A stretch of DNA of 64,000 nucleotides, taken from Bacteroidetes bacterium UKL13-3. GTDB taxonomy: Bacteria; Bacteroidota; Bacteroidia; UKL13-3. The stretch lies in the NCBI GenBank assembly GCA_001602415.1, contig CP012155.1:2660223-2724222 (forward strand). Direction: 5' to 3'. Both the position numbers and the translations under genes were made by a program. Shown piece after piece: positions 23,518 through 31,006 of the stretch. The notes under the pieces were generated by a model. That model was not told where the DNA came from. It made no database searches and worked only from the letters and a program-made list of their open reading frames with translations. Every line of letters starts with the position of its first letter. Position 1 is the first letter of the stretch.

Positions 23518-24129
23518 ATGGACGAATCAAAATTGAAAATACTAACAGGAGCCCAATCACTATTTCTGCGTTATGGCTTTAAAAGTATTACCATGGATGA
23601 TATATCTAGAGAGCTAGGCATTTCAAAAAAAACGCTTTACCAATACTTTACAGATAAAAACGACTTGGTTAATCAGGCTGTAGAAAATCACTTGAGTGAG
23701 GAAAAGGCCTTTTGTTTGGAATTGGATGTTACGGAAAAGGATCCGATTGCCTATTTACTGGCTATAAGCAACAAGTTTAGTAGTGAAGAAAAATACATTA
23801 ACCCGGCAGTGTTATTTGAGTTAAAAAAATACTTTAAAGAGGCGTGGGATAAGGTTGAACAATACAGGAAGGAATTTATATACGAGCAAGTACTAACCAA
23901 TCTTCAACAAGGTAAAAGTAAAAGTTTGTATCGCAAAGAGTTAAAAGAAAAAATTATTGCATTGCATTACGTTCACATGATTCAGTTTATGGTGAACCCC
24001 GAGAATTATTATAAGGAAGAGCGCAACTTTAACGTTGTTCACAGAGAAATGATGAGTTATCACCTTCATGGCATCCTTACTGAAAAAGGCCTAAAACAAT
24101 TAGACAAATTATTAAACCAACCACAATAA
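23518..24129 (+). CDS. TetR/AcrR family transcriptional regulator
   Basis: 203 aa. The N-terminal TetR DNA-binding domain is clear: LFLRYGFKSITMDDISRELG then ISKKTLYQYFTDKNDLV (helix-turn-helix at about 25-50). The C-terminal half is a helical ligand/dimer domain with no specific family. It is the first gene of a four-gene efflux operon (2-bp gap to the TolC gene), so it most likely represses that operon from the palindrome at 23442-23471 and responds to a pump substrate. Confidence 0.92.
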   Translation: MDESKLKILTGAQSLFLRYGFKSITMDDISRELGISKKTLYQYFTDKNDLVNQAVENHLSEEKAFCLELDVTEKDPIAYLLAISNKFSSEEKYINPAVLFELKKYFKEAWDKVEQYRKEFIYEQVLTNLQQGKSKSLYRKELKEKIIALHYVHMIQFMVNPENYYKEERNFNVVHREMMSYHLHGILTEKGLKQLDKLLNQPQ

Positions 24130-24131
24130 AT

Positions 24132-25496
24132 ATGAAGCGAACCATTTATTTACTCGTTTGCACCTTGCTTAGTGTGCAACTCTTTGCACAAGAGAAGCCG
24201 ATACAAAGTTTTTCGTTAAAACAAGCTGTTGAGTTTGCTAAGAAAAACAACTATGCCCTTAAAAATAATCAGTTAGACGTATTAGCTGCTCAAAAAAAAG
24301 TAAAAGAGATTTTATCAAGTGGATTACCCCAAGTAAGTGCCACTGGTAATTTTATCAATAATACAACCATTGCCACTCAAGTTTTACCAAACTTTTTAAA
24401 GCCAACATTTGTGCAACTTGGTATGCCAGGAGCCAATGAGTTAAGTGATTTTATTCCTGCTCAGTTTGGTCAAAAATTTTCGGCTACCGGAAGCATCTCT
24501 GCATCGCAGCTATTATTTGATGGCGGTTTTTTAATGGGTGTGAAAGCCGCTAAGGAATATGTGGCACTTGCTGAAATAAATGTTAACCGAGGAAATATTG
24601 AAACGGAAGTTAACGTAAGCAAAGCCTATTACGCAGTGTTGCTACTTCAAACCAATGTCAAACTCCTTACCACCAATTTAGAAACGTTAACCAAAGCAAA
24701 AGGTGATATGGAGAAACTTTACAAAGCAGGATTGGTAGAAAAAACAGATTTTGATAGGATAACTTTACAGCAATCAACAATTGACGTAACACGAAGTAAA
24801 ATAGCAGATCAACAACGTATTGCAAGTATGATTTTGAAACTTCAACTTGGAATGAATGTTAACGATAGCATATTGCTAACGGATGATCTACAAAAAATGT
24901 TTACATCAGTTCAAACAGTTGCTGTTGAATCCAAAGCAGATTACAATAAACGCACCGAGTATCAATTATTAAACCAATCAATCAAACTAAATACATTAGA
25001 TAAAAAACGTTATCAATATGGGTATGCTCCTTCATTGGTTGCCATTGCCGCAACCCAACGAAATACATTCGGATCTAATTTTAGTGATTTAGGAAATACA
25101 TGGTTTCCAGGAACTTATTGGGGCTTAAATTTGAGCATTCCTATTTTTGATGGTTTGCGTAAATCGGCACAAATTCAACAATCCAAAATAAACATCACCA
25201 AAGCCGAAAATGACAAGAAAACTATGGAGAATGTGATTGAACAACAAGTATTGCAATCCAAACTCACTTTTTTAAGAACAGGTGAACAACTCGCCATTCA
25301 GGAAAAGAACATGACACTTGCCCAAGATATATATGACAGGGTGCAACTTAAATACAAAAATGGAGTTGGTTCAAGTTTAGAATTAACAATCTCTCAAAAC
25401 GATTTGGAAACGGCACGCACCAATTATTTATCAACCGTGTACGACTATTTTGTAGCTCAACTCGAATTACGTAAAGCCATGGGTGACATCAAATAA
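24132..25496 (+). CDS. TolC-family outer membrane efflux protein
   Basis: 454 aa outer-membrane channel of a tripartite pump. MKRTIYLLVCTLLSVQLFAQ is a signal peptide with cleavage before QEKP. Two OEP repeats follow: the first begins FSLKQAVEFAKKNNYALKNN, the second is centred on NQSIKLNTLDKKRYQYGYAPSL. Conserved GLNLSIPIFDGLRKSAQIQQ and the C-terminal KNGVGSSLELTISQNDLETAR are visible. Encoded between the regulator and the adaptor, matching the pump order regulator-channel-adaptor-permease. Confidence 0.94.
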   Translation: MKRTIYLLVCTLLSVQLFAQEKPIQSFSLKQAVEFAKKNNYALKNNQLDVLAAQKKVKEILSSGLPQVSATGNFINNTTIATQVLPNFLKPTFVQLGMPGANELSDFIPAQFGQKFSATGSISASQLLFDGGFLMGVKAAKEYVALAEINVNRGNIETEVNVSKAYYAVLLLQTNVKLLTTNLETLTKAKGDMEKLYKAGLVEKTDFDRITLQQSTIDVTRSKIADQQRIASMILKLQLGMNVNDSILLTDDLQKMFTSVQTVAVESKADYNKRTEYQLLNQSIKLNTLDKKRYQYGYAPSLVAIAATQRNTFGSNFSDLGNTWFPGTYWGLNLSIPIFDGLRKSAQIQQSKINITKAENDKKTMENVIEQQVLQSKLTFLRTGEQLAIQEKNMTLAQDIYDRVQLKYKNGVGSSLELTISQNDLETARTNYLSTVYDYFVAQLELRKAMGDIK

Positions 25497-25532
25497 TTTA
25501 TAACCACTAAGAAAAAGTAAAAATATACGCAT

Positions 25533-26666
25533 ATGAAAAAAGTAATAGGAATTATGTTATCACTTGCAATAGTAGCCATAGCTGCATGCAGTGGAGGAAG
25601 TTCAGTGGAAAAGAAAAAAGCTGAACTCGAAAAATTAAAAACACAGCAAACAGAACTAGCTGCGAAGATTGCAACGATTGAAGATGAGTTAAAGGCAGCA
25701 GGCGATTCATTGAGTGAAGAAGATACGCGTTCGAAAGTTGTGGCCATAAGCCCTATAACCAGACAAACTTTCGTTCACGCGATAGATATTCAAGGAAAAG
25801 TTGATGGAGATGAAAATATCACCTACAGCGCTAAAGTTCCAAGCATTGTTACAAAAATAAACGTTAAAAACGGGCAGAATATTACAACAGGAACCATTCT
25901 TGCCGAGCTTGATACCAAAATAGTAAAAGCTCAAATGGATGTTGTAAAAAAACAATATGAATTGGTTAAAACACTTTATGAAAAACGTAAAGAATTATGG
26001 GATCAAAAAGTGGGCAGTGAAATTGAATTTTTGCAAGCCAAAAACCAAAAAGAGAGCCTAGAAAAACAACTGGAAAGCATTAAAGAAAATTTGGATATGT
26101 ATTACATCCGTGCCGAGTTTAATGGAACAATTGATGAAGTTGCAATTAAAGTAGGGCAAAATGTTGCCCCTGGAGTTAAATGTGTAACTGTTGTAAACCC
26201 TGGTAAACTTAAAATAAAAGCGAACCTTTCAGAGTCGTACTCAAGTTTTGTAAAAACAGGTAACCCAACAAAAATATATTTCCCAGATATCCCTAAAACC
26301 ATTTCAGCTAAAGTTAGCTACTCATCAAAAACAATTGATATGTTAACCCGCACATTCAATGTGGAAGTGATGCTTCCTAACGATAACGACTTACACCCTA
26401 ATATGGTTGCCGAACTAAAAATTATTGACTACGAAAAACCAAATAGCATAATTGTTCCAATTAATGCCATACAGCAAATTGATGGTACCGATAATGTTTT
26501 TATTACCGTAAGCAGAGGCTCACAACGAATTGCTAAGAAAGTGACCGTTAAAGTTGGAAAGCAATATAACGGAGTGGCCGAAATCCTTGAAGGATTAAAC
26601 GAAGGTGATGAGTTGATCACAACCGGATTTCAAGATTTAACAGATGGACAATCGTTGAAACTATAA
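25533..26666 (+). CDS. RND efflux periplasmic adaptor (lipoprotein)
   Basis: 377 aa membrane-fusion protein. MKKVIGIMLSLAIVAIAAC gives a lipid-anchored N-terminus. A coiled coil (about 25-60, KKKAELEKLKTQQTELAAKI) precedes the lipoyl half VDGDENITYSAKVPSIVTKI and NGQNITTGTILAELD. The hairpin, the second lipoyl half (IRAEFNGTIDEVAIKVGQNV), a beta-barrel and the membrane-proximal domain ending GLNEGDELITTGFQDL follow. The short coiled coil before the lipoyl domain is an extra segment often seen in Bacteroidota adaptors. Confidence 0.94.
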   Translation: MKKVIGIMLSLAIVAIAACSGGSSVEKKKAELEKLKTQQTELAAKIATIEDELKAAGDSLSEEDTRSKVVAISPITRQTFVHAIDIQGKVDGDENITYSAKVPSIVTKINVKNGQNITTGTILAELDTKIVKAQMDVVKKQYELVKTLYEKRKELWDQKVGSEIEFLQAKNQKESLEKQLESIKENLDMYYIRAEFNGTIDEVAIKVGQNVAPGVKCVTVVNPGKLKIKANLSESYSSFVKTGNPTKIYFPDIPKTISAKVSYSSKTIDMLTRTFNVEVMLPNDNDLHPNMVAELKIIDYEKPNSIIVPINAIQQIDGTDNVFITVSRGSQRIAKKVTVKVGKQYNGVAEILEGLNEGDELITTGFQDLTDGQSLKL

Positions 26667-26703
26667 CCTCTCACCATTATTTAACAGAAAAATATAACTT
26701 GTT

Positions 26704-29700
26704 ATGCAAGATTTAAATAAAGAATTTAAACCTTCGAGTTGGAGTATAAATAATAAAACAAGTATTTACATACTTACCATTATTATTACACTTGCAGGGC
26801 TGTTTTCATACAACAGTTTACCTAAGGAGCAATTTCCTGAAGTTAAGTTTCCCAGCATCCTCATCACTACCATATACCCAGGAACCTCTCCAAACGATAT
26901 GGAGCAATTGGTTACCAAAAATTTAGAAAAACAACTTGGTACACTCTCGGGTGTAAAAAAGATAAAGAGCAATTCTGTTCAGGATTTCTCGGTAATTAAT
27001 GTTGAATTTAACACCGACCAAAATGTAGATTTATCACTTCAACGTGTTAAAGATGCTGTTGCAAAAGCCAAGAACGATTTACCTGATAACTTACCCAGAG
27101 ATCCTCAGGTAACCGACATTGATGCCTCGCAGTTTCCAATTATGCAAGTGCATATCAATGGTGATTTACCGTTGGATAAAATGAAAAAATTTGCAGACCA
27201 ATTGCAAGATGAAATTGAAGGATTAAAAGAAATTACCGAAGCGCGCATGTCGGGTGCATTGGAACGTGAAATCCAAGTAAACGTTGATATGTATAAAGCC
27301 GAAGTTGCTTCTATCAGTTTTCAAGACATCAACAGCGCTATTAACTATGAAAACATGACCATTAGCGGTGGACTTGTTGACATGGACGGATTAAAACGTT
27401 CTATCAGTGTAAAGGGACAATATGCAGACCCTCAAAAACTAGGCGATATTATTATCAGAGGCCCAACAGGAGCAACTATTTACCTTAAAGATATTGCCGA
27501 AATTAAAGATGATTACAAGGAGAAAGAAAGCTACGCCCGCCTTGAACACAAAAATGTAATCACACTAAACATAATAAAAAAGAGTGGTGAAAATCTAATT
27601 GAAGCCTCTGATAAAATTAAAGCCATTTCAGAACGTTACGAAAAAAGTGTATTCCCTGATGGCTTAAAAATAACCATTACAGGTGATCAGTCGGAAAAAA
27701 CCCGTACCACTTTGCATGATTTGATTAATACCATCATTATTGGATTTGTTTTGGTAACCGTTATTCTCATGTTTTTTATGGGAGCAACCAATGCCATCTT
27801 TGTGGCAATGTCGGTTCCACTATCATGCGCTATCGCCTTTCTTGTCTTTCCGGCAATCGGATTCAAACTAAACTTTATTGTTCTTTTCTCTTTCTTGCTT
27901 GCATTGGGTATTGTGGTAGATGACGCTATTGTTGTTGCAGAAAACACCCATCGTATTTTTGCCAACGGAAAAGTGCCAATCAAAAAAGCTGCTAAAATGG
28001 CTGCGGGTGAGGTGTTTTTGCCAGTATTCTCAGGAACGATGACAACCCTCGCTCCTTTTATTCCATTGGCATTCTGGCAAGGTGTTATTGGTAAATTCAT
28101 GTTCTTCTTACCTATTACACTTATTGTAACATTGCTTGCTTCCCTTTTAGTTGCTTATATCATCAATCCTGTTTTTGCTGTTGATTTTATGAAGACCCAC
28201 GAAGAAGAAGACAAGGTGCGTAACAACAAAAAAGGCTATAAAATTACTGCCGTTATTTTTGCCGTTATCGCTTTGCTATCCTATTTAGTAGGCAATATTG
28301 GTACAGGTAATTTTGTTGTTGTACTCTTTGGTTTATACTCGCTTAACCGTTTCATTTTGTGGAAATGGATTAAAACTTTCCAAGAAGTTCGTTGGCCGAA
28401 GGTTCAAGATGCCTACAAACGTTTAATGGAATGGACTCTTCAAAAAAGAAGGCCAATTTGGATGATGGTTGCCACTGTGGCGCTGTTCATCTTCACCTTT
28501 ATATTCACAGCTATCCGTTCGCCTAAAGTTGTGTTTTTTCCTCAGTCGGATCCAAACTTTATATACACATACATAACGCTCCCTACCGGAACATCGGCAG
28601 CCTACACCGATTCTATTACGCAAATAGTAGAGAACAGAGTGTATAAAGTAATGGGAGATCATAACCCCATTGTTGAATCCATCATTTCAAACGTAGCGGT
28701 GGGAGCAAATGATCCTTCACAATTTGAATATAATTTTAGTCCTACTCCTCACCTTGGGAAAGTAACGGTTGCATTTGTTGATTTCACCAAACGCAATGGC
28801 GAATCCTCTTCACAATACTTAGACAAAATAAGAGAAGCTACTAAAGGTATTCCAGGAGCAGAAATTGTTGTTGACCAAGAAAAAGGTGGTCCGCCAACCG
28901 GTAAACCTATTGCTATCGACATCAAGGGAGATGATATTAACCAATTAGTAAAAGTAAGTGCCGACATTAAACGCTATTTAGACTCAATTGGAATTGCCGG
29001 AGTTGAAGAACTTAAATCAGATGTTCAATCAAACAAACCAGAAATAGTTGTAGAAGTTGACAGAGAAAGGGCCAACCGCGAGGGAATTAGTACAGGCCAA
29101 ATTGGTGGCCAGTTGCGTAATGCCATTTTTGGACTGGATCAGCCAAGTAAACTAAAAGATGCGAATGATGAATACCCTATTCAAATAAGATACCGAAAAG
29201 ATCAGCGTAATAACGTGAATGCACTAATGAATTTAAAACTCACTTTCCGTGATATGAATATGGGTGGGCAAATTCGCCAAGTGCCTTTATCATCTGTTGC
29301 AACTGTTCGTTATGGAAATACATTTGGCGGTATCAAACGTTACAACGAAAAGCCCATTATTACATTATCATCTAATGTGCTTAATGGATTTAACGCAAAC
29401 GAAATTGTAGGCAAAATTGATAAGAGTTTAAAACGATATCCAATACCTGCGGGTGTAACTGTAAAAATGGGTGGTGAGCAAGAAGAACAAGCCGAAACTG
29501 GAGCTTTTTTAGGAACTGCCTTATTGGTTTCGTTAGGGCTAATATTCTTAATTTTGGTAACACAGTTTAACTCTATTTCAAAACCAATCATCATTTTAAG
29601 CGAGATTTTGCTAAGTTTAATTGGCGTATTCTTAGGGTTTTCACTTTTCAATATGCAAATTTCCATTATCATGACAGGTGTTGGAATTATAGCCCTAGCA

Positions 29701-30114
29701 GGTATTGTGGTACGAAATGGAATTTTACTAGTAGAATTTACCGAGATTTTATTGGGCGAAGGCATGCCATTGCGCGAAGCAATCATTGAGGCAGGTCGCA
29801 CACGCATGACACCGGTAATTTTAACAGCAACAGCTACCATGCTTGGATTAATACCACTTGCATTAGGATTAAATATTGATTTTGCGTTATTGTTCCAAAC
29901 AGGTAACCCTCATATTTTCTTTGGAGGAGACAGTGTTGCGTTTTGGGGGCCATTATCCTGGACCATGATTTTTGGGTTAGGTTTTGCAACTATTTTAACT
30001 TTGGTGTTGGTTCCAGTGATGCTTTACCTGAGTGAAAATTTAAAATTACGTATAGGAATTCAACCAAAGCACAAGTTCGATCATCCAACGGAAACAAATG
30101 CCGAAACACTCTAA
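26704..30114 (+). CDS. RND efflux permease (AcrB/HAE1 type)
   Basis: 1136 aa inner-membrane proton/drug antiporter. Seen: SIYILTIIITLAGLFSYNSLPKE..FP at TM1, the porter domains, and TM2-6 including LALGIVVDDAIVVAENTHR, where the consecutive Asp residues of the proton relay lie. The second porter block and IVVRNGILLVEF in the C-terminal TM bundle follow. Between TM6 and TM7, residues about 514-555 form two extra hydrophobic helices (ITAVIFAVIALLSYLVG and FVVVLFGLYSL) flanked by charged residues; classical AcrB lacks these. Last gene of the operon; a weak hairpin follows at about 30124-30160. Confidence 0.94.
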   Translation: MQDLNKEFKPSSWSINNKTSIYILTIIITLAGLFSYNSLPKEQFPEVKFPSILITTIYPGTSPNDMEQLVTKNLEKQLGTLSGVKKIKSNSVQDFSVINVEFNTDQNVDLSLQRVKDAVAKAKNDLPDNLPRDPQVTDIDASQFPIMQVHINGDLPLDKMKKFADQLQDEIEGLKEITEARMSGALEREIQVNVDMYKAEVASISFQDINSAINYENMTISGGLVDMDGLKRSISVKGQYADPQKLGDIIIRGPTGATIYLKDIAEIKDDYKEKESYARLEHKNVITLNIIKKSGENLIEASDKIKAISERYEKSVFPDGLKITITGDQSEKTRTTLHDLINTIIIGFVLVTVILMFFMGATNAIFVAMSVPLSCAIAFLVFPAIGFKLNFIVLFSFLLALGIVVDDAIVVAENTHRIFANGKVPIKKAAKMAAGEVFLPVFSGTMTTLAPFIPLAFWQGVIGKFMFFLPITLIVTLLASLLVAYIINPVFAVDFMKTHEEEDKVRNNKKGYKITAVIFAVIALLSYLVGNIGTGNFVVVLFGLYSLNRFILWKWIKTFQEVRWPKVQDAYKRLMEWTLQKRRPIWMMVATVALFIFTFIFTAIRSPKVVFFPQSDPNFIYTYITLPTGTSAAYTDSITQIVENRVYKVMGDHNPIVESIISNVAVGANDPSQFEYNFSPTPHLGKVTVAFVDFTKRNGESSSQYLDKIREATKGIPGAEIVVDQEKGGPPTGKPIAIDIKGDDINQLVKVSADIKRYLDSIGIAGVEELKSDVQSNKPEIVVEVDRERANREGISTGQIGGQLRNAIFGLDQPSKLKDANDEYPIQIRYRKDQRNNVNALMNLKLTFRDMNMGGQIRQVPLSSVATVRYGNTFGGIKRYNEKPIITLSSNVLNGFNANEIVGKIDKSLKRYPIPAGVTVKMGGEQEEQAETGAFLGTALLVSLGLIFLILVTQFNSISKPIIILSEILLSLIGVFLGFSLFNMQISIIMTGVGIIALAGIVVRNGILLVEFTEILLGEGMPLREAIIEAGRTRMTPVILTATATMLGLIPLALGLNIDFALLFQTGNPHIFFGGDSVAFWGPLSWTMIFGLGFATILTLVLVPVMLYLSENLKLRIGIQPKHKFDHPTETNAETL

Positions 30115-30377: not shown

Positions 30378-30451
30378 TTGCATCTATTGAGTAGAGGTGC
30401 AATTTGTTTCATAGGCTATGATAGACCCTCGAAAGAGGGTTTATCTTTTTT
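30378..30451 (+). ncRNA. Structured RNA module 1 (hairpin + terminator)
   Basis: Hairpin 1 is TTGCATCT (30378-30385) paired with AGGTGCAA (30395-30402), one G-U wobble, loop ATTGAGTAG. Then linker TTTGTTTCATAGG. Then an 11-bp stem GATAGACCCTC / GAGGGTTTATC with GAAA tetraloop (30420-30445), followed by T6. Module 2 repeats the same plan with compensatory changes in the terminator stem. No gene lies between the two modules, so module 1 is most simply a short sRNA ending at its own terminator. The 5' end is not defined. Not matched to a family I can name. Confidence 0.7.
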
Positions 30452-30564
30452 CCTAAAAAACATTATCCTTTATGACAGAAATATGATAGAAATAATGGTA
30501 TGCATGCATAATAATAAACGATATTTGTTCCTGTAATTATTAGTTATCAGTTTGACTTAAGAGT

Positions 30565-30635
30565 TTGCATCTATGAGTAGAGGTGCAATTTGTTTCATAG
30601 GTTAGAAAGGCCCCCGAAAGGGGGCTTTTCGTTTT
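30565..30635 (+). ncRNA. Structured RNA module 2 (hairpin + terminator)
   Basis: Hairpin 1 is TTGCATCT (30565-30572) with AGGTGCAA (30581-30588), loop ATGAGTAG. Linker TTTGTTTCATAGG is identical to module 1. The 11-bp stem GAAAGGCCCCC / GGGGGCTTTTC with GAAA loop (30605-30630) is followed by GTTTT. Loop ATGA can pair with TCAT of the linker (30595-30598), a possible pseudoknot; module 1 can form it only with a bulged T. The module ends about 26 nt before the ArsC-like ATG, so it is either an independent sRNA or a cis-acting leader of that gene. Confidence 0.7.
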
Positions 30636-30661: not shown

Positions 30662-31006
30662 ATGAAAATAATTCTTTATCATAATCAAGCATGTTCAAAA
30701 AGTTGTGAGGTGCTATCTATTTTGCAACATGTTGGTGAAGATATTACAATCATAAACTACCTAATTACTCCACCCTCCGTTGAAACTTTAACACAAATTG
30801 TAGGCATGCTCGGAATTGAAGCAAAAGATCTTGTTCGTAAAAAGGAACATCTCTACATACAACAATTCCAGGATAAACAATACACAAACTCCGAATGGAT
30901 CAAGGTCTTAAGTAAATATCCTGGGTTAATGGAGCGTCCAATCGTCATTAAAAATGGTAAAGCCATAATCGGTAGACCTCCACGAACAGTAGAAACTATT
31001 TTATAA
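30662..31006 (+). CDS. ArsC/Spx-like thioredoxin-fold protein
   Basis: 114 aa, the size of the ArsC/YffB family. ILYHNQACSKSCEVLSIL carries the Cys at the end of strand 1 with a second Cys four residues on (CSKSC). Also seen are the YLITPPSVETLTQIVGMLG helix, DLVRKKE, LMERPIVIKNGKAIIGRPP (cis-Pro and active-site Arg region) and ETIL at the C-terminus. It could be a glutaredoxin-dependent arsenate reductase, but no ars genes flank it, so a general redox role is equally likely. The ATG at 30662 is preferred over frames running back into the RNA module terminator. Confidence 0.85.
   Translation: MKIILYHNQACSKSCEVLSILQHVGEDITIINYLITPPSVETLTQIVGMLGIEAKDLVRKKEHLYIQQFQDKQYTNSEWIKVLSKYPGLMERPIVIKNGKAIIGRPPRTVETIL

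Follow-up and report, generated by a model that had tools for sequence, protein, structure and literature searches.

Behind a complete TetR–TolC–HlyD–RND efflux operon (23518–30114) lie two similar modules in tandem, and the question that they raise is whether they are genes of small RNAs (sRNAs), and of which family, or whether they serve a neighbouring gene in cis. The operon and the modules (Table 1) belong to the window, the stretch of 64,000 nucleotides from the genome of Bacteroidetes bacterium UKL13-3 that was analysed.

Table 1. Positions in the window of the efflux operon genes, the two modules and their surroundings.
Feature	Positions	Strand	Basis and remarks
TetR-family regulator, first gene of the efflux operon	23518–24129	+	Pfam
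TolC-like outer-membrane efflux protein (OEP)	24132–25496	+	Pfam
HlyD-like membrane-fusion protein	25533–26666	+	Pfam
RND (AcrB-type) efflux pump	26704–30114	+	Pfam; the orthologue is the upstream neighbour of the element in relatives
Module 1, 5′ hairpin	30378–30402	+	Arms TTGCATCT (30378–30385) and AGGTGCAA (30395–30402), loop ATTGAGTAG; from the sequence, folding and covariation in relatives
Module 1, single-stranded linker TTTGTTTCATAGGCTA, invariant, proposed seed	30403–30418	+	13-nt linker core TTTGTTTCATAGG at 30403–30415
Module 1, intrinsic terminator	30420–30451	+	11-bp stem, GATAGACCCTC (30420–30430), GAAA loop, GAGGGTTTATC (30435–30445), T-run to 30451
Weak candidate −7 box GATATTTG	30520–30527	+	One mismatch to TAnnTTTG, about 45 nt 5′ of the module 2 hairpin
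Module 2, 5′ hairpin	30565–30588	+	Arms at 30565–30572 and 30581–30588, loop ATGAGTAG
Module 2, linker TTTGTTTCATAGGTTA, invariant, proposed seed	30589–30604	+	13-nt linker core at 30589–30601
Module 2, intrinsic terminator	30605–30635	+	11-bp stem, GAAAGGCCCCC (30605–30615), GAAA, GGGGGCTTTTC (30620–30630), T-rich tail to 30635
ArsC-family protein, next gene 3′ of module 2	30662–31006	+	Pfam; at this position in part of the loci only

Variable stems around a fixed loop and linker

The sequence-only reading of this DNA had placed the two modules and described their common hairpin arms, the 13-nt linker and the GAAA-capped 11-bp stems, all of which are exact on direct reading, as are the three pairs of the terminator stem that are swapped between the copies (T-A to A-T, A-T to G-C and T-A to C-G) and the G-U pair kept at position 5 in both. 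Such compensatory change, which it took as direct evidence for a selected RNA structure, is real, but it affects a stem that belongs to an ordinary intrinsic terminator; selection on the 5′ hairpin is documented by relatives. As the arms of this hairpin and the linker are identical in both modules, what is seen within the window is conservation after duplication, with no covariation. Folding z-scores are −3.6 for module 1 and −5.0 for module 2, none of 200 shuffles being equally good, and both terminator stems are detected by a terminator scan. The tandem pair is not unique, since double or triple copies are also present in L044, L046, L048, L050, L057 and L063.

In relatives, the hairpin shows the covariation that is missing between the two window copies. 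When 39 RND-linked sequences are aligned, 98.9% of the hairpin 1 cells form a pair; 8 of the cells are double changes (1.4 in shuffles), and the paired share is at most 55.5% when the partner is slid by one column or more. For 18 representative elements, the native arms form 8.6 contiguous base pairs on average, versus 3.7 when arms are swapped between elements, and none of 20,000 arm permutations reaches the native value. Paralogues are stronger structural evidence than the covariation of the RND-linked copies: within the same genomes their stems have no sequence in common and yet are paired, as in CCTGAAAAG/CTTTTCAGG of L151, CTTGGAAGG/CCTTTCAAG of L144 and TTGCGTTG/CAACGCAA of L143.

Loop and linker, in contrast to the stem, are fixed. 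The hairpin loop is conserved as CUAGGGGUAG (CTAGGGGTAG in DNA) or UGAGUAG, with TGAGTAG in the clade of the window, and it is followed, after the second arm, by the invariant linker UUUCAUAGG, to which CUA or UUA is usually added. The TTTCATAGG part of the linker is unchanged in 30 of 30 sequences of a mixed alignment of RND-linked copies and paralogues, a count in which the paralogues were partly chosen on TTTCATAGG and which leaves outside the RND-linked orthologues L149 and L150, where TTTCATAGG deviates. Given a variable stem and a fixed loop and linker, it is the latter two that are expected to carry the function. The purine loop GGGGUAGA could also pair with UUUGUUUC of the linker (alignment columns 21–28 with 37–44), with many G-U pairs, as a possible weak pseudoknot or seed-masking state.

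Distribution and genomic homes of the family

Both modules are members of a real, undescribed RNA family. A search of Rfam 15 gives no match at gathering score in the 64 kb, Flavo-1 included, and covariance searches find the motif in most genomes of the window's order, the genera without it being g4, g12, g13 and g14. The generic model R2 matches 52 of 64 order genomes, with five copies in the window genome and six in genome G033; model R1 matches 51 of the 64 (best E 1e-23), its scores resting mainly on sequence because its hairpin string is one column off, while the covariation figures given above come from separate analyses. Outside the order, R1 yields weak and unproven matches in three of about 240 genomes of the class (G110, G113 and G131, E about 1e-4), and R2 yields weak matches in five of 394 genomes of the phylum, two of these, both in family f35, being the starting point for the GUGUUUUUCAUAGGUUAG element described below. 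Genomes of other Bacteroidota were drawn about 630 times in these overlapping samples, and the family is essentially absent from them; it is restricted to one order. In the G131 locus (L279, about 1500–1590, in another family), a hairpin AGACATA-TGGGGG-TATGTTT precedes CATAG and a strong terminator, which is the layout of the family though outside the order, at an E of 2e-4 only.

A pattern scan of GTDB species genomes returned 37 stretches, and 34 of them, in records labelled Bacteroidota, Bacteroidia or Chitinophaga MAGs, have the same hairpin, invariant linker and terminator. The remaining three, in Marithrix and Winogradskyella, are chance matches. Pattern matches in viral contigs also look like chance, none of them having hairpin, loop, linker and terminator together. 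In the window genome itself, AGAGGTGCAATTTGTTTCATAGG occurs at three or fewer mismatches in exactly two places, both in the window; of the three further copies, L132 (G000:C1:1102100) and L313 (2059014) stand alone and are almost identical, and L312 (1532864), downstream of a NuoL-like gene, is weaker. The sequence-only reading had suggested sister sRNAs under selection for RNA structure, a proposal that is supported by the missing Rfam match, the recurrence across the order, the covariation of the stems and the tandem copies elsewhere.

The most constant home of the element is the end of the efflux operon, where the RND orthologue is directly upstream in 32 of 33 informative loci (the other two of the 34 true loci are L051, which begins where its contig ends, and L040, a second copy that stands alone). 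The distance from the RND stop to the hairpin is about 12–25 nt in one large clade. A second recurrent home is the 3′ UTR of hsp20, a small heat-shock gene identified by eye from its sequence, with the hairpin within a few nucleotides of the stop codon and ribF as the next gene. Such a position suggests that the sRNA is made from the heat-shock mRNA. The members at the 3′ end of hsp20 are L314–L318, L320, L321, L323, L325, L137–L139, L142 and L145, and in most of them the hairpin lies within a few nucleotides of the stop. 3′-UTR-derived sRNAs of stress operons, such as CpxQ from cpxP, share their 3′ end, at the terminator, with the mRNA of an envelope-stress or heat-shock gene. The family likewise ends at the terminator of stress mRNAs, a likeness by position to sRNAs of a different phylum, with processing being putative here. 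Two members in G033, L134 and L136, are found near genes resembling those of conjugation ATPases or recombinases and may have spread on mobile elements.

Stand-alone copies often carry a Bacteroidota −7 box of their own. TAnnTTTG or TAnnTTGC is found upstream of 9 of 16 such copies, versus 5% in shuffled sequence, and eight of the nine boxes lie 39–45 nt before TTTCATAGG, that is, immediately 5′ of the hairpin; L313 has a TTG about 22 nt upstream of its box. RND-linked copies often have a −7-type box 57–101 nt 5′ of the linker, some of which are part of the RND coding sequence near its end and could also be due to codon usage. No perfect −7 box precedes the window copies; the stand-alone relative of L015 carries TATATTTG about as far from its hairpin as GATATTTG is from that of module 2. 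What characterizes a trans-acting sRNA gene, namely a conserved structured intergenic element with a terminator and its own promoter, is found in the family, the window copies having a weak promoter candidate only.

Relation to GibS and FopS, and competing explanations

GibS of B. thetaiotaomicron represses its targets through a single-stranded 5′ seed that pairs at start codons (PMC7366714), and FopS, with 14 paralogues bound by the RRM protein RbpB, represses susC mRNAs at start codons (PMC11697453). FopS (RF04319; PMC11697453) resembles the family in being a set of multicopy paralogous Bacteroidota sRNAs, mostly intergenic with one 3′-UTR-derived member, that have sigma-ABfr promoters and an invariant single-stranded segment followed by a terminator. 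Further likenesses would be a proposed seed containing UUUUUCAU and a possible RRM-1 partner, one RRM_1 protein being encoded in the window genome. In contrast, the FopS seed is the 5′ end, with no hairpin upstream of it (RF04319 consensus GUGUUUUUCAUgGUAUUAG...), whereas the linker of the family stands between the conserved-loop hairpin and the terminator and continues, unlike FopS, with GGCUA or GGUUA. The multicopy family, with its invariant linker, has only UUUCAU(AG) in common with FopS R1. RF04319 (gathering score 56 bits) gives no match over cut-off in the window or in 62 order genomes, and in the window genome no match at all, the module region being unlisted up to E 10. FopS-like units reading GGTTTTTCATAGTTTTAG..., followed by a terminator-like stem, occur in L434 (G006) and L463 (G244), far below the FopS cut-off.

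GibS (RF04182; PMC7366714) has UUUCAUAG of its 5′ region GUGUUUUUCAUAG in common with the linker of the family, but it is without the extra hairpin and has the motif at a different position, and the family is multicopy. It is the best sub-threshold Rfam match of module 2 (36.4 bits against a gathering score of 115), a match judged to be mostly chance because the 5′ seed of GibS aligns to upstream sequence and not to the linker; the score is 20.3 bits at the triple-copy locus L057, and GibS is unlisted for L151. Membership in either family was rejected, since both Rfam models fail and the extra hairpin contradicts the architecture of FopS. The sequence-only reading recognised no known family, which holds for Rfam and is to be amended by the UUUCAUAG that the invariant linker has in common with the seed-bearing end of GibS. 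Rfp18 of Flavobacterium psychrophilum (PMC9723704), compared by its description, has its reported pairing region in the third stem-loop, and neither R1 nor R2 finds a strong member of the family outside the window's order.

Another Bacteroidota family, f35, has sRNA-like elements in which a GC-rich stem comes after GUGUUUUUCAUAGGUUAG, and a TAnnTTTG box precedes the element in L423/L450 and L425. The f35 genomes of L423, L425, L450, L451 and L452 have a conserved, sRNA-like GTGTTTTTCATAGGTTAGCAACGGCC...GGCC, whose 5′ end is almost the GibS/FopS seed. These elements look intermediate between GibS/FopS and the window family.

The linker UUUCAUAGG is complementary to CCUAUGAAA, in which a lysine codon comes after a start codon (AUGAAA). 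This complementarity, the UUUCAUAG in common with the 5′ end of GibS and the f35 intermediates lead us to infer that the linker acts as a seed of the GibS/FopS type. In two Winogradskyella genomes, the reverse complement of the chance matches to the linker pattern is a lipoprotein-like start reading MKQIVLVV, so the complement of the linker can be a natural initiation region. Target searches gave no enrichment: antisense matches to the 18-nt linker number about 190, versus about 190 in reversed controls (17 genomes, sRNA genes removed), and CCTATGAAA occurs 36 times in the window genome, five of these being sRNA genes, versus 40 in the reversed control. About nine of the CCTATGAAA sites in the window genome are at start codons, several of them of secreted proteins, and no orthologous start-codon site is found between this genome and its genus mate (three genomes were searched, all sites of the window genome and most of those in G001 being read in context). 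The start codons of the RND operon genes have no conserved complementarity to the linker. A near-identical stretch, gagcatcattacttgcctATGAAATAACCTGAAGTTG, is present four times in the window genome (690573, 2394982, 2451959 and 2497286; L368, L381, L383 and L384).

Without enriched complementarity, and with neither orthologous targets nor conserved ones in the RND operon, a protein-binding role of loop and linker is a serious rival. The RNA would then be a sponge or docking site for an RNA-binding protein such as the RRM-1 protein, its copies titrating or guiding the protein with no pairing to mRNA. The conservation of both loop and linker on varying stems, the multiple and tandem copies, the encoded RRM_1 protein and the binding of RbpB to the R1-containing part of FopS (PMC11697453) fit such a role, which is nevertheless rather unlikely: the linker can be read as the antisense of a start codon, and 8 nt of it recur in the seed region of GibS, an sRNA that works by pairing; protein site and seed may coincide.

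It could also be argued that the element is only a 3′ end, a conserved terminator or stabiliser of RND and hsp20 mRNAs with no function in trans. It does end in a terminator and follows the RND stop in almost all loci, and in several genomes the hairpin begins within a few nucleotides of the hsp20 stop; this explanation is improbable, as stand-alone copies have their own −7 boxes, copies occur in tandem, and neither a terminator nor a stabiliser needs an invariant linker sequence. The suggestion in the sequence-only reading that module 2 is a cis-leader, or attenuator, of the downstream ArsC-like gene fares worse. The ArsC-like ATG lies 27 nt past the end of module 2, and in about a dozen loci an ArsC-family gene comes next, but only there; elsewhere the next gene is an ABC ATPase, an opposite-strand gene or another one, paralogues sit at unrelated places, and the constant neighbour is the upstream RND gene. 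A downstream gene that differs or lies on the opposite strand in the other loci makes a dedicated ArsC leader very unlikely. A mobile or REP-like palindromic repeat, which several copies per genome, some in tandem and some near conjugation or recombinase genes in G033, could bring to mind, is hardly credible and already contradicted by wholly different stems around a fixed loop and linker, the reverse of the REP pattern, and by orthologous positions that are stable across genera.

A proposed start-codon-masking sRNA family

The explanation that we favour is that each module is probably the gene of a multicopy, stress-linked family of trans-acting sRNAs whose mode of action is that of FopS and which have a 5′ hairpin in addition. 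It builds on a conserved, covarying, multicopy element that ends in a terminator, is linked to RND and hsp20 genes, has promoter boxes on its stand-alone copies and is confined to one order. The scheme that we infer from it extends to expression, 3′-UTR processing, seed function, direction of regulation and protein partner. Stand-alone copies would be transcribed from their own sigma-ABfr-type promoter, and for the RND- and hsp20-linked copies the 3′ UTR of these stress genes would probably be an additional, or the only, source. The mature RNA would consist of the 5′ hairpin with its conserved loop, the invariant single-stranded linker and the intrinsic terminator. Through the linker, it would pair as a seed with translation-initiation regions that contain AUGAAA, blocking ribosome loading as GibS and FopS do. 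The 5′ hairpin would protect and present this seed, and the conserved loop may make a second contact or bind a protein, possibly the RRM-1 (RbpB-like) protein of the genome. Tandem copies would raise the dosage.

More tentatively, one start-codon-masking seed (UUUCAUAG plus a variable 3′ extension) might underlie a class of sRNAs that is widespread in Bacteroidota, with GibS/FopS, the f35 elements and the window family as its branches, a conjecture that we regard as possible and not as likely. What is known of post-transcriptional regulation in Bacteroidota comes from a few genera and a handful of their sRNAs. To our knowledge, an obvious Hfq or ProQ is missing from Bacteroides, for whose sRNAs the route to the targets is still unsettled. 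Paralogous trans-acting sRNAs are already known in Bacteroidota; what is new is a family with no Rfam match that most probably works like GibS and FopS. This family, tied to efflux and heat-shock genes and keeping a short segment that is also present in the GibS/FopS seed region, would make the idea of a common start-codon-masking seed in Bacteroidota testable, and its alignment and model allow the RNA to be annotated in environmental genomes.
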